Assembly: GCF_025144145.1 (NCBI RefSeq)
Contig: NZ_CP083548.1
Span: 62,001 to 126,000, forward strand
Source: Leisingera sp. M658
GTDB lineage: Bacteria > Pseudomonadota > Alphaproteobacteria > Rhodobacterales > Rhodobacteraceae
Direction of reading: 5' to 3'
DNA: 64,000 nt
Shown: positions 25,156 to 47,130 of the stretch, piece after piece
Layout: the number at the start of each line of letters is the position of its first letter
Position numbering within the stretch: position 1 is the stretch's first letter
Notes under the pieces: generated by a model
What the model was told of the DNA's origin: nothing
Database searches by the model: none
The model's input: the letters and a program-made list of their open reading frames with translations, nothing else
Made by a program: the position numbers and the translations under genes

Positions 25156-26454
25156 TCAAACCTTCATCGGTTTGCCAGCCGCATAGGTCTGCGCGATGGA
25201 GCGGTCGTCGCCCAGGGTCTGCAGGATAAACAGCTCCTCGGACAGGGTTTCGGCCCGCTGCATCCGCAGATCCATCGCCGGGGTGGCGCGGGAATCGAGC
25301 ACCACGATGTCGGCCTCGGTGCCGGCGTCCAGCGTGCCGATTTTGTTCGCCAGCCCAAGCGCCACCGCGTTGCCGCGAGTGATCCAGTGGAAAGCGCGCA
25401 AGGGATGCAGTTTCTGGTTCTGCAGCTGCAGGACCTTGTAGCCTTCGTTCAGGGTCTGCAGCATCGAATAGCTGGTGCCGGCGCCGATATCGGTGGCAAT
25501 TGCATTGGTGATGCCGCGGCCGCGCAGCCCTGCGTCGTCGAACAGCCCGCTGCCCAGGAACAGGTTCGAGGTCGGGCAGAACACCGGCTTGGCCTGGGTC
25601 TCGGCCAGCGCATCGATCTCGCGCGGTTTCAGGTGGATCGAGTGGCCCAGCAGCATCTTTTCCGTCAGCAGCCCGTAGGACTGGTAGACATCCAGATAAT
25701 CGCGTGTCTGCGGGTACAGTTCGGCGGTAAAGGCTATCTCGTCATGGTTTTCCGACAGATGGGTTTGCACGTAGCACTCGGGGTGCTCCTTCACCAGTGC
25801 ACCCGCCATCTCCATCTGATCAGGGGTGGAGGTGATGGCGAAGCGCGGGGTGACCGCATACATCCCGCGGCCTTTGCCGTGGTACCTCGCGATCAGCTCC
25901 TTAGTATCGTCGTAGCCGCTGACGGGCGTGTCCAGCAGCCCCTCGGGTGCGTTGCGGTCCATCAGGACCTTGCCGCCGATCATCCGCATGTTGCGGCGCG
26001 CGGCCTCGTCGAAATACGCCTCGGCTGAAGTTTTGTGGACCGAGCAATAGGCGACAGCCGTGGTGGTGCCGTGGCTGGCCAACAGGTCAAAGAAATGCCC
26101 GGCCATCTGCGCGCTGTGGCCGGCATCGGCAAAGCGGACCTCCTCGGGGAAGGTATAATTGTTCAGCCATTCCAGCAGTTGTGACCCCCAGGAAGCGATC
26201 ACCTGCACCTGCGGGAAATGCAGGTGGGTGTCGATGAAGCCGGCCATAAGGATGTTCGGGCGATGGTCGATCACCTGCGCCTCCGCCGCCTGCGCGGCCA
26301 GATCGCCATAGCTGCCCTTGGCCAGGATCATACCGTCCGCCAGCAAGAGCGCACCGTCCTCGATGAACTGATAGGCGCTGGTGTCGTCAGCGCCTTGCGG
26401 TTCAGCGGTGAAGGTCAGCACCCGCCCGCGCAGCAGCGTCTGTTTCGATGTCAT
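25156..26454 (-). CDS. guaD: Guanine deaminase
   Basis: A 432-aa amidohydrolase that converts guanine to xanthine, feeding xanthine dehydrogenase. Zinc-site and active-site motifs are visible: GFIDTHLHFPQ (HxH), QTHLSENHDE, LGHSIHL and the Asp region TDIGAGTSYSML. The Met at 26454 (TSKQTLL) is chosen over an upstream in-frame start at 26511 that would add a non-homologous leader. It is the last gene of a minus-strand set with the permease and xdh genes. Confidence 0.93.
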   Translation of the reverse strand: MTSKQTLLRGRVLTFTAEPQGADDTSAYQFIEDGALLLADGMILAKGSYGDLAAQAAEAQVIDHRPNILMAGFIDTHLHFPQVQVIASWGSQLLEWLNNYTFPEEVRFADAGHSAQMAGHFFDLLASHGTTTAVAYCSVHKTSAEAYFDEAARRNMRMIGGKVLMDRNAPEGLLDTPVSGYDDTKELIARYHGKGRGMYAVTPRFAITSTPDQMEMAGALVKEHPECYVQTHLSENHDEIAFTAELYPQTRDYLDVYQSYGLLTEKMLLGHSIHLKPREIDALAETQAKPVFCPTSNLFLGSGLFDDAGLRGRGITNAIATDIGAGTSYSMLQTLNEGYKVLQLQNQKLHPLRAFHWITRGNAVALGLANKIGTLDAGTEADIVVLDSRATPAMDLRMQRAETLSEELFILQTLGDDRSIAQTYAAGKPMKV

Positions 26455-26517
26455 GTCTTTGATGTCCTTGGTTCGCAGGCAGGGGACGCGGTGCCCCCTG
26501 CCCCTTTTCATTTGGGA

Positions 26518-28101
26518 TTATTCGCCTGCAGGCAGGTGCGGCACATGGGGTTTGGCAGCGTCCTCATGCTCATCCGCCTTGTGGAAGATCGGATAGATGA
26601 ACAGGAACGCAGCCGCGATCAGGTAGCCCATTGCGACGCCGCTGAATTCCGGCCAGTGCAGGCTGGCAGAATGGATCACACCGACCAGCGACATCACCGC
26701 CGCCGCCAGGGCAAAGCCGCCCGCGTTGCGGAAGTCGCCGTCGATCACGCTGGCGACAATGGCGCCCCAGATCAGCCCGGTCAGGATGGCACCCTGGCTG
26801 AGAGCCAGATGACCTTCGTAATGCGCGCCCTGCTGCAGCAGCGCCGCGGTCAGCTCAGCATCACCCAGCTGCGCCATGCCGGTGGCACCCAATGCGCCCA
26901 ATGCGCCGGCCAGTGCGCCCCATTTGATCACCAGGAAGGCCGAGACATGCGGCATCATCGCGATGGTCACCGCCGCGATATGGTCTGTCTTCACCGAATG
27001 CGCGGTGTTGGTCACCAGGCTGAGCGCCACAAACACCAGAACCGGCGCGGCAGCGGCCACGGGGATCAGGTTGTTGAGGAACGCCAAGAGGCCAAAGAAG
27101 GCGGCAAAGGGGATCACCAGGCCAACGCCGATGATATAGCCCGAGCGCGCGCCCATGCGTTTATAGGCCGGATGGCCGATATAGGCGGTGGTCGGGAACG
27201 GCGAGCCGAAGACCGCACCGATCATGGTGCCGACACCGTCGGTCACCTGGCACAGACCGACCGGATAGTGGTCGCCTGCCGCTTCGGCGCTTTCGACGTT
27301 GTTCATGGTCTCAATAAAGTTGTAGATCTGCACCGGCACCAGAACCAGGAACAGCTCCGGGTTGGCAAACAGATGCTGGATGCCGGCAATCAGGTCCCCG
27401 AAGTAGGGGATCGGCAGGTAGACGCCCACACCCTCGAACGAGACCGAAGCCTTGCCCATTCCCAGCGCTACAACGGTGCCGACGATCAGCGCCAGAAGGC
27501 CCGCCGGAATGTTGAACGGCAGCCGGTGACGGCCGACCAGGCCCCACAGGATGATGATCATCGAGGCAAAGCCAATGAACGGATCCTCGAAAATCGTGGC
27601 CAGCGGCACGGTGCCGATGAACACCAGTGCAATGCCGCACAGCGTGCCCAGCATGCCGGCGCGCGGGGTCACGCGTTTGAGCCATGGGCCGACGATGGCG
27701 CCAAGGCCAGCCACGATACCGCCCATGAAGCCCGCGCCAATGCCCACCTGCCAGGCCAGCATGGCGTCATTGGTGGACCAGTAGATCGGCCCGATCACGC
27801 CGAACAGATAGACGAACATGACGGGCGTTGAGATGCCATAGGGCAGCGCAGTCACGTCGCGCCCCTCTTTCTCGGCTGTATGTTTGGCCAGCCAGGTGTA
27901 AACCGCGACACCGGCCAGGATCGCCACTGCGGCACCCGGCACGATGCGGCCGAACACGATCTCTGCAGGCATGTTGAAGACAAACTGACAGATGCCCGAA
28001 AGCACAATCAGGTTGATCAGGTTGTCGGTAAACAACGCCCAGAATGCACTGAAGTCATTCCGCGCGAACAGTTTGTATGTGTAGCTCCGCCCTGTGGTCA
28101 T
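26518..28101 (-). CDS. NCS2-family purine permease
   Basis: A 527-aa integral membrane transporter with about 12-14 hydrophobic segments of the nucleobase:cation symporter-2 / xanthine-uracil permease superfamily. Features include LPYGISTPVMFVYLFG near residue 85, NFIETMNNVESAEAAGD and SPFPTTAYIGHPAYKRMG. It lies between guanine deaminase and xdhC, so guanine, hypoxanthine or xanthine are the likely substrates. It differs in sequence from the second NCS2 permease at 39331, suggesting division of labour (bases versus urate). Confidence 0.82.
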   Translation of the reverse strand: MTTGRSYTYKLFARNDFSAFWALFTDNLINLIVLSGICQFVFNMPAEIVFGRIVPGAAVAILAGVAVYTWLAKHTAEKEGRDVTALPYGISTPVMFVYLFGVIGPIYWSTNDAMLAWQVGIGAGFMGGIVAGLGAIVGPWLKRVTPRAGMLGTLCGIALVFIGTVPLATIFEDPFIGFASMIIILWGLVGRHRLPFNIPAGLLALIVGTVVALGMGKASVSFEGVGVYLPIPYFGDLIAGIQHLFANPELFLVLVPVQIYNFIETMNNVESAEAAGDHYPVGLCQVTDGVGTMIGAVFGSPFPTTAYIGHPAYKRMGARSGYIIGVGLVIPFAAFFGLLAFLNNLIPVAAAAPVLVFVALSLVTNTAHSVKTDHIAAVTIAMMPHVSAFLVIKWGALAGALGALGATGMAQLGDAELTAALLQQGAHYEGHLALSQGAILTGLIWGAIVASVIDGDFRNAGGFALAAAVMSLVGVIHSASLHWPEFSGVAMGYLIAAAFLFIYPIFHKADEHEDAAKPHVPHLPAGE

Positions 28102-28132
28102 GGCGGCCTCCTCCTATCAGAGGACGCAGTCC

Positions 28133-29026
28133 TTAACGGCTGATCACTCCAGCCGTGTCTCCCTCTGCGTCCGGTTGCTTGCCCGTTTGAGGCAAATCAA
28201 TGCTCCGTGCTGGAGCGGACGCGGCAGTTTCAGAGGTCAATTCAGCGATCACTTCCGCAGCCACGAAGGCCGCGATGACGCTGGGCCGCTTGTCGCGGCT
28301 GCCGCTTGCCCCGATGGGGCAGATGAGACGGTCGGTTCGCTGACCGTCGCAATGATCCCGGCACCAGCGGCGGAATTTCTCCCGCTTGGTGGCCGATCCG
28401 ATCAGGCCCACGTACCCGGCATCACCGCGCTGCAGGGCAGCGGAGGCAAGCAGGAAGTCGAGCGCGTGATCATGGGTGAGAACAACAAAGGCGCTGCCCG
28501 CCGGGGCGGTGGCAATGTCGATCTCGGGAATGGCGCTTTGGCGGATTTCCACATCCGCTTGGGCTTGGGCCAATTCTTCGGCGCGCTGGTCAATCAGGAT
28601 GCAGCGCACCGGCATATGCTGGAACAGATCCGTCAGGGCGCGGCCCACGTGGCCTGCGCCCATCACATAGACATGCGGCAGGGTCTGCTCATCAACCTGC
28701 TGGCGGGCAATGGCATCGTCGCGGTCTGCCTGGCGCATCTGCGCCAGCGACATTTCCACCCGGCCGCCGCAGCACTGGCCGATTTCCGGCCCCAATGGCA
28801 CGTCCAGCGTGTCGCTGATCACATCCTGCTTCAGCATCCGCCGGGCGTGGTCGATGGCGATATATTCAAGCTGGCCGCCGCCAATGGTGCCCCACAGGCC
28901 GTCCGCCGCCACAAACATGCAGGTGCCGGCCCCGCGCGGGGAGGATCCGCGAACGCGGGTCAGCGCGACCTGCACCACACGGCTGTGGCTGGCCAGAAAA
29001 TCCTGGAGGGAGAGGCGGCGGGCCAT
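28133..29026 (-). CDS. xdhC: XdhC, molybdenum cofactor sulfuration/insertion chaperone for xanthine dehydrogenase
   Basis: A 297-aa accessory protein that delivers sulfurated molybdenum cofactor to XdhB. The N-terminal XdhC/CoxI domain has RGSSPRGAGTCMFV and GTIGGGQLEY, and the C-terminal Rossmann domain has YVMGAGHVGRAL and YVGLIGSATKREKF, followed by ICPIGASG...KRPSVIAAFVAAEV. It starts 3 bases after the xdhB stop, in operon with xdhA and xdhB. Confidence 0.92.
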   Translation of the reverse strand: MARRLSLQDFLASHSRVVQVALTRVRGSSPRGAGTCMFVAADGLWGTIGGGQLEYIAIDHARRMLKQDVISDTLDVPLGPEIGQCCGGRVEMSLAQMRQADRDDAIARQQVDEQTLPHVYVMGAGHVGRALTDLFQHMPVRCILIDQRAEELAQAQADVEIRQSAIPEIDIATAPAGSAFVVLTHDHALDFLLASAALQRGDAGYVGLIGSATKREKFRRWCRDHCDGQRTDRLICPIGASGSRDKRPSVIAAFVAAEVIAELTSETAASAPARSIDLPQTGKQPDAEGDTAGVISR

Positions 29027-29029
29027 GGC

Positions 29030-31348
29030 TCAGCCCTGCCCTTTGAGGGTTTCGATCGCCATCAGCACGCGCTCCGGCGTGGCGGGTGCGTCCAGACGCG
29101 GGCAGACCTTGTAATCCGCCGTGCTGGCAACCGCCATCGACAGCGCCTCGAACACCGAGATGCCCAGCATGAACGGCGGCTCGCCCACGGCCTTGGACCG
29201 CTTGATGGTGCGCTTCTTGTTTACTGACCATTGGGCCAGCTGGGTGTTGAAGATGCGCGGCCGGTCAGACGCCAGCGGGATCTTGTAGGTTGAGGGCGCA
29301 TGGGTGCGCAGTCGGCCCTCGCCGTCCCACCACAGCTCCTCGGTGGTCAGCCAGCCCATACCTTGGATAAAGGCGCCCTCCACCTGGCCCTTGTCCAGCA
29401 CTGGATTCAGCGAGCGGCCCACGTCATGCAGGATGTCGGTGCGCTCGACCCGGTATTCACCGGTCAGCGTATCGACGGAGACTTCCGAGCAGGACGCGCC
29501 ATAGGCGTAGTAGAAGAACGGCTGCCCCTTGCCCGCCGCGCGGTCCCAGTGGATTTCCGGCGTCTTGTAGAAACCCGCCGCCGACAGCTGGACACGGGCC
29601 ATGTAGGCGGCTTTCACCAGCGTATCAAAGGGGATCTCCTCGCTGCCGACCCGCACGCGGTTGGGCAGGAACTCGACCTCTGCCTCGGAGACTTCATATT
29701 TCTCAGCTGCGAATTTGGTCAGCCGGGCAATGATCTGCTCCGCTGCATCCAGCGCCGCCATGCCGTTGAGGTCCGAGCCTGAAGAGGCCGCGGTGGCGGA
29801 GGTGTTCGGCACCTTCTCGGTGGTGGTCTTAGTGATCTTGATGCGCTCGAAATCCACCTGGAAGGCATCGGCCACAACCTGCGCCACCTTGGTGTTGAGG
29901 CCCTGCCCCATCTCGGTGCCGCCGTGGTTCAGATGGATAGAGCCGTCATTGTAGACATGGATCAGCGAACCCGCCTGATTGTACCAGGTCGCGGTGAAGG
30001 AGATGCCGAATTTCACCGGCGTGAGCGCAATGCCCTTCTTGATAATCTTCGACTCCTTGTTGAAGGCGATGATTTCTTCGCGGCGCTTGCGGTATTCGGC
30101 GTTTTCCTCCAGCTCCCCGATCAGCCGGTCGAGGATGTTGTCCTCCACCTTCTGATGATAAGGCGTCAGGTCGCGGCCTTCCTCGCCATAGAAGTTGGCC
30201 TTGCGCACATCCAGCGGGTCTTTGCCGAGGGCATAGGCGATTTCTTCGATCATCCGTTCAGCAGCGATCACACCCTGCGGGCCGCCAAAGCCGCGGAAGG
30301 CGGTGTTGGAGACGGTGTTGGTCTTCATCGGGCGGCTTTTCAGCAGCACGTTCGGGTAGAAGTAAGCGTTATCCGCATGGAACAGCGCCCGGTCGGTGAC
30401 CGGCCCGGACAGGTCCGAGGAAAAGCCGCAGCGCGCGGCAAAGCCGCCCTCAACGGCCTGAATACGGCCCTCGCCATCAAAGGCCACGTCATAGTCGATC
30501 ACGAAGTCATGGCGCTTGCCGGTGGCGGTCATGTCCTGGTCGCGGTCGGGACGGATCTTGACGGCGCGGTTGTGTTTCTTTGCGGCAATCGCAGCCACCG
30601 CGCAGAACAGGTTCATCTGGCTTTCCTTGCCGCCAAAGCCGCCGCCCATGCGGCGCACGTTGACGGTCACCGCGTTGTTTGCCACGCCAAGAACATGCGC
30701 CACCATATGCTGCGCCTCGCTCGGGTGCTGGGTGGAGCAATGCACGGTCACATCCTCGTCTTCGCCCGGAATGGCAAAGGCGATGTGGCCCTCCAGATAC
30801 ATGTGGTCCTGGCCGCCTACAGTCATCTGCGCCTGGATGCGGTGCGGGGCACCCTTGCGGCCCGCCTCCACGTCGCCGCGCTCCAGCTTTAGCGGGTCGG
30901 TGATCATCGGATAGCCCGCCTCCTGCGCCTGGACCGGGTCCAGCGCGTGCGGCAGCACCTCGTAATCCACCTGCGCCAGTTCGGCAGCACGGCGGGCGGC
31001 ATCGCGGGTTTCGGCGATCACCGCAAACATCGGCTGGCCGTGGAATTCGACCTTATCGGTCGGGAACACCGGCTCGTCATGTTTGCCGGTGGGGCTGATG
31101 TCGTTGACGCCGGGAATGTCATCGGCGGTCAGCACATCTACCACACCGGGCGCGGCGCGCACGGCACTGAGGTCGATGCCTTTGATATTGGCGTGCGCCA
31201 CGGTTGAGACACCCAGGTAGGCGTGCAGCGTGCCATAGGGTTCAGCGATATCGTCGGTGTATTCGGCGCGTCCCGTCACATGCTTGATCGCACTGTCGTG
31301 CTGGCGGTCATGGTGCACGGCGCCGCTGATGGTCTGATGGTCTTTCAT
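29030..31348 (-). CDS. xdhB: Xanthine dehydrogenase molybdenum-binding subunit
   Basis: A 772-aa catalytic subunit that oxidises hypoxanthine/xanthine to urate. Mo-cofactor motifs are GGGFGGKESQ (about residue 230), NTAFRGFGGPQG and the active-site Glu region VGEPPFMLGISVF near the C-terminus. EGAFIQGMGWLTTEE is also present. The Met at 31348 (KDHQTISG) is chosen because family proteins begin near here; the ORF extends to 31477 only through the 3' end of xdhA. It works with XdhA (FeS/FAD) and depends on XdhC and on molybdate, for which modABC lies 18 kb away. Confidence 0.94.
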   Translation of the reverse strand: MKDHQTISGAVHHDRQHDSAIKHVTGRAEYTDDIAEPYGTLHAYLGVSTVAHANIKGIDLSAVRAAPGVVDVLTADDIPGVNDISPTGKHDEPVFPTDKVEFHGQPMFAVIAETRDAARRAAELAQVDYEVLPHALDPVQAQEAGYPMITDPLKLERGDVEAGRKGAPHRIQAQMTVGGQDHMYLEGHIAFAIPGEDEDVTVHCSTQHPSEAQHMVAHVLGVANNAVTVNVRRMGGGFGGKESQMNLFCAVAAIAAKKHNRAVKIRPDRDQDMTATGKRHDFVIDYDVAFDGEGRIQAVEGGFAARCGFSSDLSGPVTDRALFHADNAYFYPNVLLKSRPMKTNTVSNTAFRGFGGPQGVIAAERMIEEIAYALGKDPLDVRKANFYGEEGRDLTPYHQKVEDNILDRLIGELEENAEYRKRREEIIAFNKESKIIKKGIALTPVKFGISFTATWYNQAGSLIHVYNDGSIHLNHGGTEMGQGLNTKVAQVVADAFQVDFERIKITKTTTEKVPNTSATAASSGSDLNGMAALDAAEQIIARLTKFAAEKYEVSEAEVEFLPNRVRVGSEEIPFDTLVKAAYMARVQLSAAGFYKTPEIHWDRAAGKGQPFFYYAYGASCSEVSVDTLTGEYRVERTDILHDVGRSLNPVLDKGQVEGAFIQGMGWLTTEELWWDGEGRLRTHAPSTYKIPLASDRPRIFNTQLAQWSVNKKRTIKRSKAVGEPPFMLGISVFEALSMAVASTADYKVCPRLDAPATPERVLMAIETLKGQG

Positions 31349-31361
31349 CTCAAAATCCTCC

Positions 31362-32825
31362 TCAGGCGACGGCCAGCCGGACGGCACCGGCGGTTCCCGC
31401 ATCATGTTCCAGGTAGAAGCGGCGCAGCAGGTTGCTGGCCGTGAGCGCGCGGTACTTCGCGGAGGCACGCCAGTCACTGAGCGGAGTGAAATCCTGCTTC
31501 ACCGCCTCCGCCGCCGCGTCAAATGCGGCTTCGCTCCAGGGCTGGCCCACCAGTGCGGCCTCGGCGCCTGCAGCGCGTTTCGGCGTTGCCGCCATGCCGC
31601 CAAAGGCGATGCGGGCCGCGGTGATCACACCATCTGCCACCTCCACGCTGACACCAGCAGCAACCGAGGAGATATCCTCGTCCCGGCGTTTGGAGATCTT
31701 GTAGGCGGCATCAATCTGGCCAGCCATAGGTCTCGGGATGCGGATTGAGGCCACAAAATCGCCCGGCTCGCGGTCCTGCTTGCCATAGTCGATAAAGAAG
31801 TCTTCCAGCGGCAGCGTGCGGCTGCCGCCTTGTTTCTGCAGCGTCACCTCGGCGCCGAGCGAGATCAGCACTGGCGGGGTGTCCCCGATGGGTGAGCCAT
31901 TGGCGATATTGCCGCCGATGGTGCCCATGTTGCGCACCTGCCAGCCGGCAATGCGGTCCCAATATGCGCTAAGGTGCGGGAAGGCATCGCGGATTGCAGC
32001 TTCGCTTTCGGTATAGGTGACGCCCGCGCCGATGGTCAGCGCCTGATCGGTCAGCTCAACTGCCTTCAGCTCCTCCAGGTGGGACACAAACACCACCGGG
32101 GAAATCGGCTTCATGAATTTGGTCACCCACAGGCCCACATCAGTGGAACCGGCCACGATGGTTGCCTTGGGGTTCTCGGCCAGCACCTGTGCAAGGTCGC
32201 TTGCGTCCAGCGGCAGGATGGCGCGGTCGTCTTCGGGGCCGGTCACTACACGGGCCTGTGGCTGGATGGCCTTGAGATTGGCGGTCAGGCTGTCACGCTC
32301 GGTGGTCAGATAGTCGTTGGCCGGGGTGCCGTACTGGTTCACTGCCAGGGCGGCGCGGACAATCGGCTCATAACCCGTGCAGCGGCAAAGGTTGCCCTGC
32401 ACGGCGGTTTCCACCTGCGTCTCGTTCGGCTGCGGGTTTTCCATCCAGAGCGCATAAAGCGACATCACGAAACCGGGGGTGCAAAAGCCGCATTGGCTGC
32501 CGTGGTATTCGACCATAGCCTGCTGTACCGGATGCAGACGGCCATTGGGGCCGGCCAGATGCTCCACCGTTACCACATGGCAACCGTTCAGCGAGGCCAG
32601 GAAACGGATGCAAGCGTTGATCGCCTCATAGCGCAGGGCGCCATTCTGCAGCCGCCCCACCAGCACGGTGCAGGCGCCGCAGTCGCCCTCGGCGCAGCCC
32701 TCCTTGGTGCCGGTCAGGCGCTGTTCCAGGCGCAGGAAATCCAACAGGGTGGTGGTTGCCTTCACGTCCTGAAGTACGATGTTCTGGCCGTTCAGCAGAA
32801 AGCGGATGTCGGTTTGATGTGTCAT
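31362..32825 (-). CDS. xdhA: Xanthine dehydrogenase iron-sulfur/FAD subunit
   Basis: A 487-aa electron-transfer subunit. Two [2Fe-2S] domains are at the N-terminus (CAEGDCGACTVLVG, then GSQCGFCTPGFVMSL and GNLCRCTGYEPIV). They are followed by the FAD domain (TIVAGSTDVGLWVTK, MGTIGGNIANGSPIGDTPP) and the CO-dehydrogenase flavoprotein C-terminal domain. The Met at 32825 has GGAGG 6 bases upstream on its strand and is preferred over 32855. It is the first gene of the minus-strand xdhABC-permease-guaD series, divergent from a LysR regulator. Confidence 0.94.
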   Translation of the reverse strand: MTHQTDIRFLLNGQNIVLQDVKATTTLLDFLRLEQRLTGTKEGCAEGDCGACTVLVGRLQNGALRYEAINACIRFLASLNGCHVVTVEHLAGPNGRLHPVQQAMVEYHGSQCGFCTPGFVMSLYALWMENPQPNETQVETAVQGNLCRCTGYEPIVRAALAVNQYGTPANDYLTTERDSLTANLKAIQPQARVVTGPEDDRAILPLDASDLAQVLAENPKATIVAGSTDVGLWVTKFMKPISPVVFVSHLEELKAVELTDQALTIGAGVTYTESEAAIRDAFPHLSAYWDRIAGWQVRNMGTIGGNIANGSPIGDTPPVLISLGAEVTLQKQGGSRTLPLEDFFIDYGKQDREPGDFVASIRIPRPMAGQIDAAYKISKRRDEDISSVAAGVSVEVADGVITAARIAFGGMAATPKRAAGAEAALVGQPWSEAAFDAAAEAVKQDFTPLSDWRASAKYRALTASNLLRRFYLEHDAGTAGAVRLAVA

Positions 32826-32919
32826 CTGGCCTCCGGAGTGTTGTTGGGCCGTCATGGCCCGCTTAGGTTTGTTTTACCCTGTCTGACTGCCCCGGTTAAC
32901 GGGTGCAATTGCGAAAGGC

Positions 32920-32938
32920 TTTCAACACCTTGTTGAAA
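32920..32938. promoter_or_regulatory. LysR-type box between xdhA and the LysR gene
   Basis: A perfect 7-bp inverted repeat TTTCAAC-N5-GTTGAAA lies midway in the divergent gap, about 94 bases from each start codon. It has the T-N11-A form of LysR recognition sites, so it is the best candidate site for the adjacent regulator at 33032. Confidence 0.55.
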
Positions 32939-37209: not shown

Positions 37210-37239
37210 GCCAGCCTCCATTCAATTCTGTTGACTTAG

Positions 37240-39330: not shown

Positions 39331-40767
39331 ATGGCTGATACTTCCATCGGGACGCCGGCACAGCTGCGCGACCCGAATTACACCCCGCCTTTGCACAAGG
39401 CGGTCCCGCTGGGCATCCAGCATGTGCTGGCGATGTTTGTTTCAAACGTGACACCTGCGATCATCGTGGCCGGCGCCGCCGGTTTCGGGTTCGGATCCAA
39501 CTCGCCGGATTTCCCGGAGCTGCTGTACCTGATCCAGATGTCGATGCTGTTTGCCGGTATTGCCACACTGCTGCAGACAATCACCCTGGGGCCGATCGGT
39601 TCTGCGCTGCCGATTGTGCAGGGTACATCTTTTGCCTTTTTGCCGATCATGATCCCGCTGGTTGCAGGCAAGGGTGTGGATGGGCTGGCAGCCCTTTTCA
39701 CCGGCGTCATTGTCGGCGGCATCTTTCATGGGCTGCTCGGCACAGTAATTGGCAAGATCCGCTTTGCCCTGCCGCCGCTGGTCACCGGGCTGGTGGTGAC
39801 AATGATCGGCCTGGCGCTGGTCAAGGTCGGCATCCAATACGCGGCGGGCGGCGTTCCCGCCATTGGCACGCCGGAATACGGCTCGCTGTTGAACTGGTCG
39901 GCGGCGCTGGTGGTGATCATTGTCACCCTTGGCCTGAAATTCTTTACCAAGGGCATGCTGTCGGTCTCGGCCGTGCTGCTGGGGCTGATCGTGGGCTACA
40001 TCTATGCATTGATGACCGGCATGCTGACGTTTGAAGCCGTCTCCGGCTCCTGGTCGCAAGCCGCAGCCTTTGCCCTGCCGCAGCCGTTCAAATACGGGGT
40101 CGAGTTCTCCGCCGCCGCGATCATCGGCTTTTGCCTGATGAGCTTTGTCTCTGCCGTTGAAACCGTGGGCGATGTGTCCGGCGTGACCAAGGGCGGCGCA
40201 GGCCGCGAGGCCACCGAGCAGGAAATCGAAGGCGCCACTTATGCTGATGGTGTCGGCACCGCGGTTGCGGGCTTCTTTGGCGCCTTCCCCAATACATCAT
40301 TCAGCCAGAACGTCGGCCTGATTGCGATGACCGGGGTGATGAGCCGCCATGTGGTGACCTGCGGCGCCATCTTCCTGATCATCTGCGGGCTGGTGCCCAA
40401 GGTGGGTGCGGTGATCCGCACGGTGCCGATCGAAGTGCTGGGCGGCGGTGTGATTGTGATGTTCGGTATGGTGGTTGCGGCCGGTGTGTCGATGCTGTCG
40501 GATGTGGACTGGAACCGCCGCAACATGGTGATCTTTGCGATTTCCCTGTCCATTGGCCTGGGTCTGCAGCTGGAACCCGGTGCTTTGCAGCATATGCCCG
40601 ATACCGCGCGGATCCTGCTGACCAGCGGTCTGCTGCCAGCCGCGCTGATTGCCATCGTGCTGAACCTGGTTCTGCCGCAAGAGCTGGCGGGTGAAGCAAC
40701 CGAAGAAGTCTCAGGCGGGATGAGCGGCCATGGCCGCGGATCGCTACCGCATGAGGATCGCAGCTGA
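39331..40767 (+). CDS. NCS2-family urate/xanthine permease
   Basis: A 478-aa symporter of the uracil/xanthine permease (COG2233) branch that includes UacT, PucK and YgfU. It has QHVLAMFVSNVTPAI in TM1, PIVQGTSFAFLPIM, and the NCS2 signature SQNVGLIAMTGVMSRHV near residue 325. It is downstream of allA with AGGAG before the ATG, so urate uptake is the most likely role; xanthine is an alternative. A bidirectional terminator follows. Confidence 0.87.
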   Translation: MADTSIGTPAQLRDPNYTPPLHKAVPLGIQHVLAMFVSNVTPAIIVAGAAGFGFGSNSPDFPELLYLIQMSMLFAGIATLLQTITLGPIGSALPIVQGTSFAFLPIMIPLVAGKGVDGLAALFTGVIVGGIFHGLLGTVIGKIRFALPPLVTGLVVTMIGLALVKVGIQYAAGGVPAIGTPEYGSLLNWSAALVVIIVTLGLKFFTKGMLSVSAVLLGLIVGYIYALMTGMLTFEAVSGSWSQAAAFALPQPFKYGVEFSAAAIIGFCLMSFVSAVETVGDVSGVTKGGAGREATEQEIEGATYADGVGTAVAGFFGAFPNTSFSQNVGLIAMTGVMSRHVVTCGAIFLIICGLVPKVGAVIRTVPIEVLGGGVIVMFGMVVAAGVSMLSDVDWNRRNMVIFAISLSIGLGLQLEPGALQHMPDTARILLTSGLLPAALIAIVLNLVLPQELAGEATEEVSGGMSGHGRGSLPHEDRS

Positions 40768-40790
40768 CACGCGGGGATGCCGAAAACAGA

Positions 40791-40818: not shown

Positions 40819-40836
40819 TTGATGCTTTGAACCGGT

Positions 40837-41802
40837 TCAGAAGTCGACCTCGATGGCGATGCCCTTTTCAACCGCCGCTTCAACAACCGAAGCCGCGACG
40901 GCCAGATCCTGCAGGCCGACGCCAGTGCCGTCGAACAGGGTGATCTGATCGTCTGAAATGCGTCCAGGGTTGGTGCCATTGATCACCGCACCGATCTGGG
41001 CCACGTCCGTCTCCTGGATCAGGCCCTGGGCCACCGCGTGCTGGGCCTCACCGATAGAGATCGACTGGGCGACCTCGTCGGTGAATACATCTGCCGCGAC
41101 CAGCAGCTGCGGATCGACCTCTTGCTTGCCCTTGGTGTCGGTGCCCATGCAGGCAATGTGGGTGCCAGGGCTGACCTGGCCCGCCTTCAGGATCGCATCA
41201 AAGGAGGAGGTGATCGAGATGATCACATCCGCCTCGCGTATACCGTCCAGCTCCACCGCTTCAAAGGGCAGCCCGGCCTCGTCCGCCACTTCCTGCAGGT
41301 TCGGCAGCATGTCAGGATGCAGGTTCCAGCCAATCACTTTTTCAAACTGCCGCTGCTCCAGTGCTGCACGCAGCTGGAACTTGGCCTGATGGCCCGCGCC
41401 GATCATGCCGATCACCTTGGCGTCCTTGCGGGCCAGATGCTTGATCGACACCGAGGAGGCCGCGGCGGTGCGCAGCGCGGTCAGCAGGTTGCCACCCACC
41501 ATCGCCTTCACCTTGCCAGTGTCCGGATCGAACAGGAAAACGGTGGACTGGTGGTTGATCAGCCCGCGTTTTTCCAGGTTGTTCGGCCAGTAGCCGCCTG
41601 CCTTGAGGCCCAGGGTAAGACCAGCTTGGTCAAATCCGCCTTTGAAGCCGTAAAGCGCGTCCTCGTGACCGATCGCCTCCCGCACCACGGGGAAGTTGTA
41701 GGCATCACCTGCGGCCATGGCGGCAAAGACCTTCTCGACCGCGTCGAACGAGGCTTTACGGGTCACCAGGTCCGCAATCGCCTTTTCCGGAACGATGTAC
41801 AT
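40837..41802 (-). CDS. bhcD: Iminosuccinate reductase
   Basis: A 321-aa ornithine cyclodeaminase/mu-crystallin family enzyme that reduces iminosuccinate to L-aspartate, closing the beta-hydroxyaspartate cycle. Features are YIVPEKAIADLVTRKAS at the start, GGLTLGLKAGGYW-like LGLKAGGYWPNN, and the NAD(P) site VIGMIGAGHQAKFQL (about residue 132). It is the fourth gene of the bhcABCD operon, 73 bases after bhcC. Alone the family would suggest ornithine cyclodeaminase; the operon decides the call. Confidence 0.9.
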   Translation of the reverse strand: MYIVPEKAIADLVTRKASFDAVEKVFAAMAAGDAYNFPVVREAIGHEDALYGFKGGFDQAGLTLGLKAGGYWPNNLEKRGLINHQSTVFLFDPDTGKVKAMVGGNLLTALRTAAASSVSIKHLARKDAKVIGMIGAGHQAKFQLRAALEQRQFEKVIGWNLHPDMLPNLQEVADEAGLPFEAVELDGIREADVIISITSSFDAILKAGQVSPGTHIACMGTDTKGKQEVDPQLLVAADVFTDEVAQSISIGEAQHAVAQGLIQETDVAQIGAVINGTNPGRISDDQITLFDGTGVGLQDLAVAASVVEAAVEKGIAIEVDF

Positions 41803-41875: not shown

Positions 41876-43039
41876 TTAGTAGGCTTTGCCACGGGCCGAG
41901 ACCGGCCAGACGGTTTCAACCTTGCCGTCTCTGACACCGACGTACCAGTCATGCACGTTGGCGGTGGGGTCGCAGTGGCCCGGCACCAGGCGCAGCTTGT
42001 CGCCCACTTTCAGCGCGCCGTTCGGGTCGGAAACCACGCCGTGCTCGTCCGAGCATTTGATGTATTCCACGTCGTCGCGGCCAAAGATGAAGGGCAGCCC
42101 GCTGTCCACCGACTGCGCTTTGAGGCCGGCGTCAACAATGGCCTTGTCGGATTTGGCGTGGCTCATCACCTGGGTCAGCAGGAAGAAGGCGTTTTCCCAC
42201 TCACCTTGGTCGATCCGGTTGCCGTCCTTGTCCAGGATGCGACCGTAATCGGCGTCCATGAAGGCGTAAGAGCCGCACTGCAGTTCGTTGTACACGCCGG
42301 AGTTTGATTCAAAGTAGTAGGAGCCAGTGCCGCCGCCGGACACCAGCTCGCAGTCGATGCCTTCGGCCTTCAGGCCCTCAACCGCATCGGCAACCTGGGC
42401 GATGGCGATGTCCAGCTTGGCCTTGCGGTCTGCGTAGCTGTCCATGTGCTGCATCGCACCCTGATAGGCCTGAATGCCTGTGAACTTGAGGTTCTCGGCC
42501 GCGTTCACAGCTTTGGCGATGATCACAACAGCCTCGGTGGTGGTCACGCCGCAGCGCCCCGCGCCGCAGTCGATCTCAATCAGGACTTCCAACTGGGTGC
42601 CATGCTTCTGCGCTGCTGCCGACAGGTCGGCCACATTGTCGATATCATCGACGCAGACAATGGTGCGCGCACCCAGATTGGGCAGGCGGGCCAGACGGTC
42701 GATCTTCTGCGGGTCGCGCACTTGGTTCGAGACCAGAACGTCCTTGATGCCGCCGCGGGCAAAAACCTCTGCCTCAGATACCTTCTGGCAGCAGACGCCA
42801 ACCGCGCCGCCCAGAGATTCCTGCAGTTTGGCCACATCCACCGATTTATGCATCTTGCCGTGCACCCGGTGGCGCATGCCGTGCGCCTTGGCATAGTCGC
42901 CCATCTTCTTGATGTTGCGCTCCAGCGCGTCCAGGTCCAGCACCAGCGCCGGGGTCTGGATGTCAGCCTCATCCATGCCCGGGATCGCCGGGACATCATA
43001 GCCGACTTCGAGGTCGTCAAATTTGGTCTGTGCGTTCAT
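41876..43039 (-). CDS. bhcC: Beta-hydroxyaspartate aldolase
   Basis: A 387-aa PLP-dependent enzyme of the D-threonine aldolase / alanine-racemase-fold type. It condenses glycine and glyoxylate to (2R,3S)-beta-hydroxyaspartate. It has LVLDLDALERNIKKM with the Lys-bearing HRVHGKMHKS near residue 60, EIDCGAGRCGVTT and ELVSGGGTGSYYFES. The Met at 43039 (NAQTKFDD) has GGGAG upstream and is preferred over an earlier in-frame Met at 43054. The gene is 17 bases after bhcB. Confidence 0.92.
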   Translation of the reverse strand: MNAQTKFDDLEVGYDVPAIPGMDEADIQTPALVLDLDALERNIKKMGDYAKAHGMRHRVHGKMHKSVDVAKLQESLGGAVGVCCQKVSEAEVFARGGIKDVLVSNQVRDPQKIDRLARLPNLGARTIVCVDDIDNVADLSAAAQKHGTQLEVLIEIDCGAGRCGVTTTEAVVIIAKAVNAAENLKFTGIQAYQGAMQHMDSYADRKAKLDIAIAQVADAVEGLKAEGIDCELVSGGGTGSYYFESNSGVYNELQCGSYAFMDADYGRILDKDGNRIDQGEWENAFFLLTQVMSHAKSDKAIVDAGLKAQSVDSGLPFIFGRDDVEYIKCSDEHGVVSDPNGALKVGDKLRLVPGHCDPTANVHDWYVGVRDGKVETVWPVSARGKAY

Positions 43040-43056
43040 TGTGGTAACTCCCAAAA

Positions 43057-44010
43057 TCAGCTGTTCATCCAGGGCAGCGTGTCGAGATCGACATTGCCGC
43101 CGGTGACAATCAGGCCCACGCGTTTGCCAGCGAAGGCATCCTTGTTTTTCAGAATGGTAGCGAGCGGCACCGCGCTGGACGGCTCCATCACGACCCGCAG
43201 GTGCTTCCAGATCAGCTTCATCGCATCGATGATCTCCGCGTCCGACGCGGTGTAGATCTCGCTGACGTGATTGCTGACGAAGTGCCAGGTCAGCTCCTTC
43301 AGCGGTACCAGCAGCCCGTCGGCAATGGTCTTGGGCGCATCATCGGCGATGATGTAACCCGCCTTGAAGCTGCGGTAGGCGTCGTCGGCCTGCTCCGGTT
43401 CCGCTGCGATCACCTGGGTTTCCGGCGCCAACGTCGACAGTGTCAGGCAGGTGCCCGAGATCATGCCGCCGCCGCCGATCGGGGCCACTACCATGTCGAG
43501 GCCATCAGCCTGTTCCACAAACTCCTTGGCGCAGGTGCCCTGCCCCGCAATGACGCGGTGGTCATTGTAAGGATGCACGAAATCGCCGCCGGTCTCCGCT
43601 TGCACCTTGGCAAAGGTCTCCTCGCGCGAGCTGGTGGACGGCTCGCATTCGGTGATCTTGCCGCCATAGCGGCGCACGGTGTCCTTTTTGGCCTGCGGCG
43701 CGGTGCGCGGCATCACCACGTTGCACGGGATGCCGCGCCGCATTGCGGCATAAGACAGGCAGGAGGCATGGTTGCCCGAGGAATGCGTCGCCACACCCTT
43801 GGCAGCCTGGACCTCATCCAGTCCGAAAACCGCGTTGCTGGCGCCGCGCACCTTGAAGGCTCCCGGCTCCTGAAAGTTCTCGCATTTAAAGAATAGATCA
43901 GCGCCGGTCAGTTCATTTAGATATGCCGAGGTGCGCACCGGCGTGCGCCGGATATGCGGCTGGATACGCTCATGCGCGGCCAGCATGTCCTCGTAAGTGG
44001 GGATATACAT
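43057..44010 (-). CDS. bhcB: Beta-hydroxyaspartate dehydratase
   Basis: A 317-aa PLP enzyme of the threonine dehydratase/serine racemase family that converts beta-hydroxyaspartate to iminosuccinate. It shows CENFQEPGAFKVRGA with the Schiff-base Lys (about residue 53), SSGNHASCLSYAA and VAPIGGGGMISG. The start is taken at 44010 (YIPTYEDML), which has AAGGAT 8 bases upstream; an upstream Met at 44025 overlaps the bhcA stop. Confidence 0.92.
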   Translation of the reverse strand: MYIPTYEDMLAAHERIQPHIRRTPVRTSAYLNELTGADLFFKCENFQEPGAFKVRGASNAVFGLDEVQAAKGVATHSSGNHASCLSYAAMRRGIPCNVVMPRTAPQAKKDTVRRYGGKITECEPSTSSREETFAKVQAETGGDFVHPYNDHRVIAGQGTCAKEFVEQADGLDMVVAPIGGGGMISGTCLTLSTLAPETQVIAAEPEQADDAYRSFKAGYIIADDAPKTIADGLLVPLKELTWHFVSNHVSEIYTASDAEIIDAMKLIWKHLRVVMEPSSAVPLATILKNKDAFAGKRVGLIVTGGNVDLDTLPWMNS

Positions 44011-44024
44011 AGTGTTATCCTTCA

Positions 44025-45215
44025 TCAGGCGGCAGCCTTGGCGCTGTTGGCGGTGTTGCCGCGGTAGTAATCCTGTGCCGCTGCCACGCCAGAACCCAGC
44101 TGGATGTTCAGGCCAAGGTCGGCCATGACCATTTCGGCGGTGGCAATGCCCGACAGCGCCATCACATCGGTCAGGCTGCCCAGATGGCCGATGCGGAACA
44201 CCTTGCCTGCGACCTCGCCCAGGCCGGTGCCAAAGGCGACGCCGTATTTCTCGGCTGCCAGGCTCACAAACTTGTTGGCATCAAACCCGTCCGGCGTGCG
44301 GATGGCGCTGACACTGTCGGAGCAGACATCCGGCGACACGGCGCACAGTTCCAGCCCCCAGGCGCTGACCGCAGCGCGAACGCCTTCGGCAATCCGGTGG
44401 TGCCGGGCAAAGACGTTCTCCAGCCCTTCGTTCAGCAGCATACCACAGGCCATGTTCAGACCGTTCAGCAGGCCGACAGAGGGCGTGTAGGGATAGGCGC
44501 TGTTGGCATAACCGGCGGCCATGTCCTTGATATCAAAGAAGGTGCGCGGCAAGGTCGCCGTCTCGGCAGCCTTCATAGCCTTGGGAGAGAAGCCGACAAT
44601 GGCCAGTCCAGGCGGCAGCATGAAGCCCTTTTGCGAGCCGGTGACGGCAATATCGACGCCCCATTCGTCCATGCGGAAGTCCATCGAAGCGATCGAGGAC
44701 ACGCCATCCACAAACAGCAGCGCCGGGTGGCCAGCGGCATCCAGTGCCCGGCGGACGGCGGCGATGTCGGATTTAACGCCGGTTGCGGTCTCGTTATGGG
44801 TGGCCAGAACCACCTTGATTTCGTGGCCCTTGTCGGCGGTCAGGATTTCCTCGTAGCGGTCGGCTGGAATGCCCTCGCCCCAAGGGGTCTCAACGACTTG
44901 AACATTCAGCCCGTGACGCTGGCACATATCGATCCAGCGGTGGCTGAACATGCCGTTGCGGGCAGCCAAAATCTTGTCACCTGGGTTCAGCGTGTTGGTG
45001 ATCGCGGTTTCCCAGCCGCCGGTGCCGGTCGACGGAAAGACGAAGATTTCGGCGGTCTCGCTTTTCAGAACCTTCTTCACGCCGGCCAGTGCCGGATGCA
45101 GAATCTGACCGAACAGCGGCGAGCGGTGGTCCAGCGTCGGCATGTCCACTGCTTTGCGCAGCACTTCGGGCATATTGGTCGGACCGGGGATGAAAACCGG
45201 ATTTTGAAAGCTCAT
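44025..45215 (-). CDS. bhcA: L-aspartate:glyoxylate aminotransferase
   Basis: A 396-aa fold-type I aminotransferase of the serine-glyoxylate/alanine-glyoxylate class. It transfers the amino group of aspartate to glyoxylate, giving glycine and oxaloacetate, the net product of the cycle. It shows FIPGPTNMPEVLRKAVDM, FVFPSTGTGGWETAI, LFVDGVSSIASMDFRMDEW and the PLP Lys in VTGSQKGFMLPPG. The Met at 45215 has AGGAGGG 7 bases upstream. It is the first gene of bhcABCD, divergent from bhcR. Confidence 0.93.
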   Translation of the reverse strand: MSFQNPVFIPGPTNMPEVLRKAVDMPTLDHRSPLFGQILHPALAGVKKVLKSETAEIFVFPSTGTGGWETAITNTLNPGDKILAARNGMFSHRWIDMCQRHGLNVQVVETPWGEGIPADRYEEILTADKGHEIKVVLATHNETATGVKSDIAAVRRALDAAGHPALLFVDGVSSIASMDFRMDEWGVDIAVTGSQKGFMLPPGLAIVGFSPKAMKAAETATLPRTFFDIKDMAAGYANSAYPYTPSVGLLNGLNMACGMLLNEGLENVFARHHRIAEGVRAAVSAWGLELCAVSPDVCSDSVSAIRTPDGFDANKFVSLAAEKYGVAFGTGLGEVAGKVFRIGHLGSLTDVMALSGIATAEMVMADLGLNIQLGSGVAAAQDYYRGNTANSAKAAA

Positions 45216-45275
45216 TTTGTGCCCTCCTGTGGCGATTTCCTTCACTGTAAGGGGGAGATATGCGTGGAGATACTT

Positions 45276-45296
45276 TTTTGAAAAACGATTTCAAAA
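45276..45296. promoter_or_regulatory. Candidate BhcR operator in the bhcA-bhcR gap
   Basis: A perfect inverted repeat TTTTGAAA-N5-TTTCAAAA lies 60 bases upstream of bhcA and 117 bases before bhcR. BhcR is known in Paracoccus to bind the bhc promoter and to respond to glyoxylate. This palindrome is the most symmetric sequence in the gap; binding here is inferred. Confidence 0.6.
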
Positions 45297-45413: not shown

Positions 45414-46247
45414 ATGCCTCAACCGCCACGCCGCAAAGGCCGCCCGAAAAGCTTTGATTCCGCCAGCCAGCCAGCCACGATCCAGTCGCTGGACCGGGCG
45501 CTGGATGTGTTGGACGCGTTGGCCGGCGCCAACGGTATGACACTGACAGAACTCTCTTTCGCGCTGGATCAGTCGGCGGCCACCATGTACCGGGTGCTGG
45601 CAACCCTGGAGGCGCGCCAGATTGTCGAGATGGAGCCGCAGTCGCAGACCTGGCACATCGGTGCGATGGCGTTCCGGCTCGGCTCCGCCTTTCTGCGCCG
45701 CTCCAGTGTGATCGAACGGGCACGGCCGGTGATGCGGGAACTGATGGAGGCCACTGGCGAAACCTCTAACCTCGGGATCGAACGCAATGGCGATGTGATG
45801 TTTGTGAGCCAGGTGGAAACGCATGAATCGATCCGTGCATTCTTCCCGCCGGGAACGACCTCCCCAATGCACGCCTCCGGCATCGGCAAGGCGCTGCTCA
45901 GCTGTTTCGGAGAGGACCGTCTGATCCGCTTTCTGCGCGGCCGGACGCTGGAGAGGTTCACGGCGAAAACGCTCACCTCAGCGGATGCCCTACGTGCTGA
46001 CCTCACGCAGATCCGCACCCGAGGCTGGTCTTTTGATGACGAAGAAAAGGCGCCGGGAATGCGCTGCGTTGCGGCGCCGGTTTTTGGCATGCAGGGTGAA
46101 GTGCTGGCGGGGATCTCCATCTCCGGCCCAACCGCGCGGATGCCGGACGGCGGCATCAACGGCATCGGCGCCCTGGTCAAGGACGCCGCGCAGAAACTGT
46201 CATATGGATTGGGCGCGCCTGCAACTGTGGAAACCCTGCCCGGCTGA
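45414..46247 (+). CDS. bhcR: IclR-family regulator of the beta-hydroxyaspartate cycle
   Basis: A 277-aa regulator: a basic N-terminal tail (RRKGRPKSF), an IclR winged helix (ALDVLDALAGANGMTLTELS, AATMYRVLATLEARQ) and an IclR effector domain (TSPMHASGIGKALLSCF, RGWSFDDEEKAPGMRCVAAPVF). It is divergent from bhcA, as in described bhc clusters, where BhcR senses glyoxylate. Convergent with allE across a GC-rich hairpin. Confidence 0.92.
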   Translation: MPQPPRRKGRPKSFDSASQPATIQSLDRALDVLDALAGANGMTLTELSFALDQSAATMYRVLATLEARQIVEMEPQSQTWHIGAMAFRLGSAFLRRSSVIERARPVMRELMEATGETSNLGIERNGDVMFVSQVETHESIRAFFPPGTTSPMHASGIGKALLSCFGEDRLIRFLRGRTLERFTAKTLTSADALRADLTQIRTRGWSFDDEEKAPGMRCVAAPVFGMQGEVLAGISISGPTARMPDGGINGIGALVKDAAQKLSYGLGAPATVETLPG

Positions 46248-46257
46248 ACAGCCGGGC

Positions 46258-46288
46258 AGCGCCCGGGCACATATCAGGGCCGGGCGCT
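46258..46288. terminator. Hairpin between convergent bhcR and allE
   Basis: AGCGCCCGG (46258-46266) and CCGGGCGCT (46280-46288) form a perfect 9-bp stem. There is no T-run on either side, so efficiency is uncertain. Confidence 0.5.
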
Positions 46289-46299
46289 CCCGCCGCCGC

Positions 46300-47130
46300 T
46301 CAGCGCAGCGGCGCCAGCGGCATGTGCCGGTTCACATCCTTGTACAGCAGATAGCGGAATTTGCCCGGGCCGCCCGCATAACAGGCCTGCGGGCAGAAGG
46401 CACGCAGCCACATGTAATCGCCGGCCTCAACCTCGACCCAATCCTGGTTCAGCCGGTACACCGCCTTGCCCTCCAGCACATAAAGCCCGTGTTCCATCAC
46501 ATGGGTCTCGGCAAACGGGATCACCGCACCGGGCTCGAAAGTCACGATCGTCACATGCATATCGTGGCGCAGATCGTTCGGATCGACAAACCGCGTTGTT
46601 GCCCATTTACCTTCGGTCCCCGGCATCGGGGTCGGATCGACATGATTTTCATTGGTGACAAAGGCTTCGGGGGTGTCCAGCCCGGCAACAGCTTGATACG
46701 CCTTGCGGATCCAGTGGAACCGGACCGGCGCATCGCCATTGTTGCGCAAGCTCCAATTGGCATGCGGCGGCAGGAAGGCATAGCCGCCCTCCTCCATTTC
46801 ATGCGCAGTGCCGTCAATGGTCAGGGTCATCGCACCTTGCACCACAAACAGCACCGCCTCAGTGCCCGCTTCGGTTTCGGGACGATCACTGCCGCCGCCT
46901 GGCTGAACCTCAGCGATATACTGCGAAAATGTTTCGGCAAATCCGGACAATGGCCGTGACAAGACCCAGAACCGGGCCTTGTCCCAGAACGGCAGAAAAC
47001 TGGTCACGATGTCGCTCATCGTGCCTTTGGGGATCACCGCATAGGCCTCGGTGAACATCGCGCGGTCGGTCAGCAGCTGGGTCTGCGGCGGCAGCCCGCC
47101 TTCCGGTGCGTAATAGGATCGTTTGGTCAT
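46300..47130 (-). CDS. allE: (S)-ureidoglycine aminohydrolase
   Basis: A 276-aa bicupin enzyme that converts S-ureidoglycine to S-ureidoglycolate with release of ammonia, supplying the substrate of AllA. It has SYYAPEGGLPPQTQLLTDRA at the start, cupin segments EGGYAFLPPHANWSLRN and TFEPGAVIPFAETHVMEHGLYVLEGKAVYRLN, and the metal-site Glu/His/Gln pattern in VEAGDYMWLRAFCPQACYAGG. The Met at 47130 has AGGAAAG-like sequence upstream. It lies beyond the bhc operon, apart from the other purine genes. Confidence 0.9.
   Translation of the reverse strand: MTKRSYYAPEGGLPPQTQLLTDRAMFTEAYAVIPKGTMSDIVTSFLPFWDKARFWVLSRPLSGFAETFSQYIAEVQPGGGSDRPETEAGTEAVLFVVQGAMTLTIDGTAHEMEEGGYAFLPPHANWSLRNNGDAPVRFHWIRKAYQAVAGLDTPEAFVTNENHVDPTPMPGTEGKWATTRFVDPNDLRHDMHVTIVTFEPGAVIPFAETHVMEHGLYVLEGKAVYRLNQDWVEVEAGDYMWLRAFCPQACYAGGPGKFRYLLYKDVNRHMPLAPLR

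Follow-up and report, generated by a model that had tools for sequence, protein, structure and literature searches.

The locus described here raises the question of whether the beta-hydroxyaspartate cycle, which has been discussed as a marine glycolate route, can also serve to keep the carbon of purines. The window, by which we mean the whole stretch of 64,000 nucleotides analysed, comes from Leisingera sp. M658, and between positions 25156 and 47130 it holds a full guanine-to-glyoxylate route side by side with the genes of the cycle and of its regulator (bhcABCD and bhcR), all of them open frames recognised in profile searches. We consider it quite probable that this is a purine island in which the beta-hydroxyaspartate cycle is the closing module that keeps the carbon. 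In the mechanism that we propose, guanine or xanthine would be imported and oxidised via urate, allantoin, allantoate and ureidoglycolate to glyoxylate, two ureas and CO2, where the enzymes are taken from profile models and the reactions from established pathway knowledge. Glyoxylate would then act on BhcR and turn on bhcABCD, as the conservation of BhcR and of its operator suggests; such switching has been shown by others in Paracoccus denitrificans. BhcABCD would convert two glyoxylates and one NADH into oxaloacetate with no CO2 lost, the ring would yield carbon and NADH, and urea would leave the cell, since no urease, urea carboxylase or glyoxylate carboligase (Gcl) was found in the genome. 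The first-pass annotation of this DNA had read the gene placement as a sign that purines are a carbon source. This reading appears well supported by the comparative evidence, because the linkage recurs, because there are links at the level of operons, and because of the three missing enzymes just named; the same arrangement in many relatives suggests that purines supply carbon, beyond being a nitrogen source alone.

Gene calls in the window rest on NCBIfam scores in bits, set against curated cut-offs, and for some genes on Pfam. The four enzymes of the cycle are contiguous on the minus strand (40837-45245): bhcD, iminosuccinate reductase (40837..41802; NF045643, 591 bits, cut-off 500; matching the solved reductase 6rqa), bhcC, 3-hydroxy-D-aspartate aldolase (41876..43054; NF045642, 765 against 690; matching the solved aldolase 6qkb, residues 6-392), bhcB, beta-hydroxyaspartate dehydratase (43057..44025; NF045641, 584 against 550), and bhcA, aspartate-glyoxylate aminotransferase (44025..45245; NF045640, 761 against 650). 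The gene of the IclR-type regulator, bhcR (45414..46247, plus strand; NF045644, 414 against 350), is divergent from them. These are the same four enzymes and the same regulator as in the cycle of P. denitrificans, all over the NCBIfam equivalog cut-offs. The block sits between xanP, an NCS2 xanthine permease (39331..40767, plus strand; TIGR03173, 427 against 414), and an allE-type gene for a bifunctional allantoicase/(S)-ureidoglycine aminohydrolase (46300..47181, minus strand; NF040771, 513 against 350), which bears out the earlier placement of allE beyond bhcR. Leisingera sp. M527 has an annotated relative of this last gene with a length of 831 bases, and a frame of that length would start at 47130 in the window.

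The purine genes begin with guaD, guanine deaminase, which turns guanine into xanthine and NH3 (25156..26511, minus strand; TIGR02967, 545 against 375), followed by xdhC, xdhB and xdhA for xanthine dehydrogenase and its maturation factor (28133..32855, minus strand; TIGR02964, TIGR02965 and TIGR02963, with XdhC at 278 against 162, XdhB at 1331 against 850 and XdhA at 670 against 467). Next come puuD, the membrane cytochrome-c urate oxidase (34501..35760, minus strand; PF06181, 442 bits), hiuH/uraH, 5-hydroxyisourate hydrolase (36853..37221, minus strand; PF00576, 121 bits), a puuE-uraD fusion of allantoinase and OHCU decarboxylase (37359..38774, plus strand; TIGR03212, 525 against 425, and TIGR03164, 216 against 96), and allA, ureidoglycolate lyase, which yields glyoxylate and urea (38771..39262, plus strand; NF002952, 277 against 260). 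All steps from guanine to glyoxylate thereby appear to be encoded, the allantoate step being assigned from the name of family NF040771. The purine and bhc genes named in the first-pass annotation stand where it had put them, all over their NCBIfam cut-offs except PuuD and the 5-hydroxyisourate hydrolase, which were called by Pfam. It had also described the two pathways as directly joined, and of this the adjacency holds and the direct junction does not: xanP intervenes, and the plus-strand group of puuE-uraD, allA and xanP converges on the minus-strand bhcDCBA. Given the convergent strands and the position of xanP between allA and bhcD, the two are neighbours in the window and do not form a single transcript.

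How often this neighbourhood recurs was surveyed across 248 genomes that sample Rhodobacteraceae at about one per genus; 102 of them carry BhcA and 218 AllE over the cut-off. Linkage was counted in 79 of the 102 BhcA-positive genomes (those of up to about 110 contigs), with only BhcA places over the cut-off and with PuuE, PuuD or a listed AllE as purine marker; 13 PuuE rows below the cut-off were dropped and G058 was kept. A purine marker lies within 25 kb of bhcA in at least 32 of the 79 (PuuE in 27 of 75, PuuD in 25 of 77 and AllE in 25 of the 57 genomes that have a place listed for it), and this count is a minimum, since AllE places are listed for those 57 alone. The linkage might have turned out to be peculiar to one strain; it recurs instead across the family and in many gene orders. 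A GlcD-like gene is within 25 kb of bhcA in only 1 of 77 genomes, a difference in proximity from PuuE with a Fisher p of 5e-9 when kinship is ignored. GlcD had to be given up as a proven comparator, as all 77 matches fall under the curated cut-off of 567.9 bits and are hence called GlcD-like. In the genome of the window itself, the glcD-like gene is on contig C1 and bhc is on C3; glcE and glcF were not searched for.

A second sample, the best 80 of 583 bhc loci by similarity to the BhcB of the window, is biased towards near relatives and includes several loci with short flanks. At least one purine enzyme gene stands in the fetched flanks of 57 of the 80 loci and glcD in none. Those 57 show 20 combinations of nearest recognised neighbours. 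The figure includes "none recognised" as a neighbour class of its own, which in some loci reflects a contig end or a short flank and inflates part of the 20. A BhcC tree was built from 104 rows, of which 58 are linked, 36 unlinked, 4 lone and 6 uncertain, and on it the distribution of linked and unlinked rows requires at least 17 changes. This is a quickly made tree that leaves 37 of its 101 inner branches open and puts the lone BhcC rows on long branches; its starred branches alone still require at least 9 changes for linked rows against all others. Because of these changes and the varied neighbour combinations, we conclude that the linkage is repeatedly lost and regained with differing purine genes. 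We also observed that Ruegeria pomeroyi SZCCDBG043 has two bhc loci, one purine-linked and one not (L023 and L079), which fall in separate parts of the BhcC tree. Eight loci (L022, L046, L064, L077, L084, L133, L134 and L140) hold bhcBCD clusters with no recognised bhcA adjoining, possibly a second type of bhc cluster.

In several loci the association goes beyond proximity. Four loci, those of Salipiger bermudensis, of a Nitratireductor metagenome-assembled genome, of Vannielia litorea and of Puniceibacterium confluentis, have a same-strand NCS1 permease gene separating bhcC from bhcD, an assignment made by Pfam for three of them and by 81% identity for the Puniceibacterium one. The Salipiger protein resembles allantoin permease, at 234 bits, below the family cut-off of 620. 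A bhc-purine cluster close to that of S. bermudensis was also seen in L052, a record titled Enemella evansiae TN21-6 and thus actinobacterial, for which assembly contamination is likelier than transfer. In Paracoccus ferrooxidans, bhcABCD is followed on one strand by genes for a purine permease (39 bp), an 8-oxoguanine deaminase (1-base overlap) and by uraH (17 bp), and the gene after uraH, annotated there as a cysteine desulfurase, is PuuD by 70% identity to that of the window. P. denitrificans HAMBI_2443 and P. versutus keep this gene order with proteins 93-100% identical; across the three Paracoccus loci the gaps are about 40, -1 and 16-17 bp, and puuD lies about 200 bp beyond uraH. We suggest that bhcABCD, the purine permease, the 8-oxoguanine deaminase and uraH form a putative single operon in P. 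denitrificans.

Purine breakdown yields urea, which the bhc cycle does not make, and genes for urea transport occur in bhc loci too. In Sulfitobacter sp. OXR-159, an AmiS/UreI transporter gene starts 126 bp after bhcD, and 2 bp further on comes a gene resembling that of glyceraldehyde-3-phosphate dehydrogenase (GAPDH). AmiS relatives are present in the bhc loci L009, L010, L037, L045, L086, L088, L132 and L145, and come next after bhcD in L009, L010, L045 and L088. On a plasmid of Sulfitobacter sp. OXR-159 (L154, 493-7242), Tn3-type and IS1380-type transposase genes stand between a short IclR-family gene and bhcA, as if bhcR had been cut at that point. Close behind bhcD of Ruegeria lacuscaerulensis (L025:13867-16152) is a gene for a malic enzyme-phosphotransacetylase fusion, plausibly an exit from oxaloacetate to pyruvate.

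What the cell would gain from the ring depends on the fate of urea and of glyoxylate. By established stoichiometry, the breakdown of two xanthines yields two glyoxylates, with xanthine dehydrogenase contributing two NADH, and the bhc cycle spends one NADH per oxaloacetate. The best match to urease alpha in the genome of the window reaches 22 bits (TIGR01792, E 1e-4), and the best to urea carboxylase 548 bits against a cut-off of 1304 (TIGR02712), covering positions 1-442, the biotin-carboxylase part, only; urea carboxylase exceeds the cut-off in 1 of 20 genomes searched (G175). With no urease or urea carboxylase found, two ureas would be lost per purine (AllC was not searched for), and carbon is therefore favoured over nitrogen as the gain; carbon and electrons are, on this gene content, the likelier yield. 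Gcl is the key enzyme of the other known route of net glyoxylate assimilation, and it was found in none of the 248 family genomes, that of the window included, at E 1e-200, in a search that found the E. coli control and in which many genomes had only 5 candidates scored.

The same evidence bears on a different explanation, according to which purines are broken down for nitrogen and bhc merely clears toxic glyoxylate, with carbon as a by-product. PMC12694930 cites glyoxylate as the toxic intermediate postulated for E. coli kinase mutants given allantoin as a nitrogen source, and the AmiS/UreI genes in some bhc loci could also import urea. Most of the nitrogen would nevertheless stay in urea, as no urease alpha or urea carboxylase was found in the genome (with the above proviso on AllC), the mutants of the Pseudomonas aeruginosa gcl cluster grew well on glucose plus allantoin (PMC12694930), and the bhc cycle recovers both carbons, which is beyond what clearing requires. 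We regard nitrogen scavenging with detoxification as somewhat unlikely, and favor the purine island in which the cycle keeps the carbon.

The promoters of the two gene sets tend to carry different dyads. Of 90 intergenic regions between bhcR and bhcA, 51 contain an exact copy of the BhcR-type dyad TGAAA-N5-TTTCA (mean after shuffling 0.02), in most cases 44-54 bp upstream of bhcA, and the predicted BhcR operator in front of bhcA in the window (45279..45293) is the sole exact copy of this dyad there. A BhcR operator shared with the purine genes of the window was rejected on this ground. With up to one mismatch the window has 3 matches against 0.95 expected, a count reached in 4 of 100 shuffles, and the inexact dyads, at 31487 and 55253, are in no purine promoter. 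Across the loci compared, the exact BhcR-type dyad was absent upstream of puuE (0 of 46), puuD (0 of 45), xdhA (0 of 18), guaD (0 of 8) and xanP (0 of 31), and was present upstream of allE in 3 of 65. A different dyad, TTTCA-N9-TGAAA, is exact in 16 of 46 upstream regions of puuE and 7 of 18 of xdhA (shuffled 0) and in 1 of 90 bhc promoters. In the window it forms two predicted purine operators, both exact matches, one in the xdhA/lysR1 promoter (32920..32938) and one in the hiuH/puuE promoter (37289..37307). The purine genes are probably under regulators of their own, of the LysR type; the two in the island are LysR-type regulator 1, divergent from xdhA (33032..33949, plus strand), and LysR-type regulator 2 (35865..36773, plus strand), each with PF00126 and PF03466. 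As no shared operator was found in the window, the coupling would probably run via glyoxylate and BhcR, and glyoxylate itself is the likely signal from purine breakdown to bhc. We aligned BhcR of the window with the IclR chain 2o99 and compared its residues with Table 1 of PMC11323563: at IclR positions 160, 161, 212, 239 and 241 it has G, I, D, S and S, and at 146, 154 and 220 it has A, S and M, all as in P. denitrificans BhcR, with Ser and not Thr at 143. The residues predicted to contact glyoxylate are thus kept as in the P. denitrificans protein, and Ser143, Ala146, Ser154 and Met220 would replace the pyruvate-methyl patch of IclR, which is absent from the protein of the window.

Several observations weigh against a dedicated purine function. 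The units in the window are convergent, and the two dyad types are nearly absent from each other's promoters. Of the 79 bhc-positive genomes, 47 were not seen linked at 25 kb, a number that partly reflects draft assemblies and incomplete AllE places; 20 unlinked loci hand-picked from these 47 show bhc genes and none of the searched purine genes at the thresholds used, and in Agrobacterium bhc adjoins an alpha-hydroxy acid oxidase gene, a glycolate-like setting. A malate synthase domain occurs once in the genome of the window (contig C1, outside the cluster), and as this and a glcD-like gene are present, other fates and other sources of glyoxylate exist. The unlinked genomes would suit the view that the neighbourhood is one of history, with bhc mainly serving glycolate, moving on plasmids and islands, and meeting purine genes by hitchhiking or common induction by glyoxylate, with no link in flux. 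In favour of mobility, 116 plasmid records match BhcB at E of 1e-80 or lower, including 40 whose identity is at least 80%, and the bhc copy on the R. pomeroyi DSS-3 megaplasmid has no purine gene annotated within 10 kb. Hitchhiking does not readily account for re-linking in differing gene orders, for purine and urea transport genes within or directly behind the bhc operon, or for glcD-like genes being hardly ever beside bhc (1 of 77), and we find this explanation rather improbable. It is highly improbable, in our judgement, that malate synthase takes most of the purine-derived glyoxylate and that bhc acts only at high flux. The single domain match in the genome speaks for such a role; it lies on contig C1 and outside the cluster, and malate synthase needs acetyl-CoA, which is not made from allantoin, an argument put forward for P. 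aeruginosa in the available parts of PMC12694930.

What stands in the place of bhc when it is missing was examined in 20 bhcA-negative regions, hand-chosen from high-scoring AllE matches on long contigs. Both xanP and allE are present in 12 of them. In L094, L098, L101 and L105 the two are 91-134 bp apart, compared with 5532 bp in the window, where bhcDCBA-bhcR fills the gap; the first three of these regions have the full gene order of the window around the close pair, and in L105 puuE-uraD was not recognised around it. The slot is taken by a GAPDH-like gene in L089, L100 and L104 (in L092 this gene is located between allE and allA), by a lone bhcC in L091 and L099, and in L090 by a sarcosine-oxidase-type DAO-GcvT fusion with an RpiR-type regulator; L106 has no notable gene there, and L107 has a different order. 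A lone BhcC homolog beside allE occurs in 4 of the 20 regions (L091:10467-11627, L093:10351-11517, L099:10337-11509 and L103:10343-11482), at 58-75% identity to BhcC of the window and with a bhcC/allE stop-start overlap in L099 and L103. Further lone copies lie beside allE in L137 (2443-3585) and beside allA in L138 (8746-9906), and BhcB was over the cut-off in none of the six genomes carrying a lone BhcC.

The GAPDH-like gene is common to bhc operons and bhc-less purine clusters, and the window has none. In bhc-less clusters it is at L089:8066-9055, L092:10792-11772, L100:11304-12287, L104:10962-12023 and L093:11615-12640. It follows bhcD in L044, L045, L046, L049, L052, L053, L063, L065 and L068, in L073, L078, L080, L081, L088, L115, L124 and L132, and in L061 about 2.9 kb away; among the 80 BhcB loci, 15 have it on the strand of bhcD and downstream of that gene, 9 of these within 150 bp. 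The five proteins tested score 323-351 bits, below the GAPDH-I cut-off of 367, and every row compared retains the SCTTN cysteine motif. After the threonine that we take to be the GAPDH phosphate site, the aligned solved GAPDH has glycine and 20 of 23 distinct GAPDH-like rows have serine, the search pattern for that position being unmatched in the other three. The protein may be a gluconeogenic isozyme or a dehydrogenase acting on glyoxylate. We offer as a tentative extension, possible but on balance doubtful, that the place between xanP and allE is an exchangeable glyoxylate-outlet site (empty, or holding the bhc module, a lone BhcC or the GAPDH-like gene), that the bhc cycle is primarily a purine-carbon pathway in many lineages including Paracoccus, that urea is exported, and that the GAPDH-like protein is an as yet undescribed enzyme that takes part in using glyoxylate.

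In function, the nearest precedent is a cluster of P. aeruginosa, the gcl cluster, which likewise combines allantoin breakdown with a dedicated glyoxylate-assimilating module. This cluster, PA1498-PA1502, is allantoin-inducible, and its mutants do not grow when allantoin is the only carbon source (PMC12694930). The gcl/glycerate pathway loses CO2, whereas the bhc module would take its role without this loss. In Rubrobacter xylanophilus, glyoxylate-to-glycerate genes are reported downstream of purine genes (PMC4016543, available parts), so that, as in the window, a glyoxylate-assimilating module follows purine breakdown. For SAR11 lacking urease, purines have been inferred to be a source of carbon and energy with urea released (PMC11698098), a reasoning similar to ours; in the available parts of that paper the route of glyoxylate assimilation is not stated, and hydroxyaspartate occurs 0 times in its text. 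The PuuD-type oxidative urate pathway, for which the available parts of PMC4562309 place P. denitrificans among the PuuD species, is represented in the window by PuuD, HiuH, UraD, PuuE and AllA; the cluster differs in ending in bhcABCD and in giving the allantoate step, by family name, to a bifunctional AllE-type enzyme. The P. denitrificans cycle has been described for glycolate and ethylene glycol, whereas its neighbours in the window are purine genes and not glcDEF. In the parts available, PMC11323563 mentions that glyoxylate could come from purines and allantoin, in a work that is itself on glycolate, and PMC11166783 and PMC12214560 deal with ethylene glycol, the latter with no mention of purines or allantoin. 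Among the papers listed in our literature searches, most of them judged by title and opening lines of the abstract, we saw none that joins the two pathways by gene linkage; an earlier mention in the Nature paper of 2019 that deals with the cycle is possible.

If the linked clusters run on purines, nucleobases from dead cells and excreted urate or allantoin would enter central metabolism by a CO2-saving route, and urease-free strains would hand nitrogen back to other cells in the form of urea, a role already suggested for SAR11. The bhc operon of P. denitrificans, a model system, would also gain a physiological setting that is missing from the available parts of the literature.

Among the remaining genes of the island, a predicted nucleobase permease (26518..28101, minus strand) is matched by neither Pfam nor NCBIfam, gave nothing useful among solved structures, and is named from the M527 gene at the equivalent place, which is annotated as a xanthine/uracil/vitamin C permease. 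Xanthine dehydrogenase requires a molybdenum cofactor, and modC, modB and modA for molybdate uptake (47253..49845, minus strand; TIGR02142, 404 against 285, NF006939, 351 against 262, and TIGR01256, 176 against 62.5) lie on the strand of allE, which comes after them at 71 bp from its longest frame. The host contig has 176,417 bases in a genome of 4.89 Mb. The stretch 33000-50000 is matched over at least 80% by 16 plasmid records, of which the 15 listed are Leisingera throughout, at 87.5-96.1% identity, with Leisingera sp. M527 closest; a plasmid of L. methylohalidivorans DSM 14336 also bears the cluster. As plasmid records cover this stretch, the purine-catabolic island is probably carried by a plasmid in this Leisingera strain. 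On another plasmid, pP75_g of Phaeobacter gallaeciensis, which is typed as conjugative, bhcB-bhcC stand with two RidA genes, an FAD oxidoreductase and a TRAP transporter (L146, 9274-17123); no bhcA or bhcD is annotated in that interval, and the set looks like one for uptake and breakdown of hydroxyaspartate.

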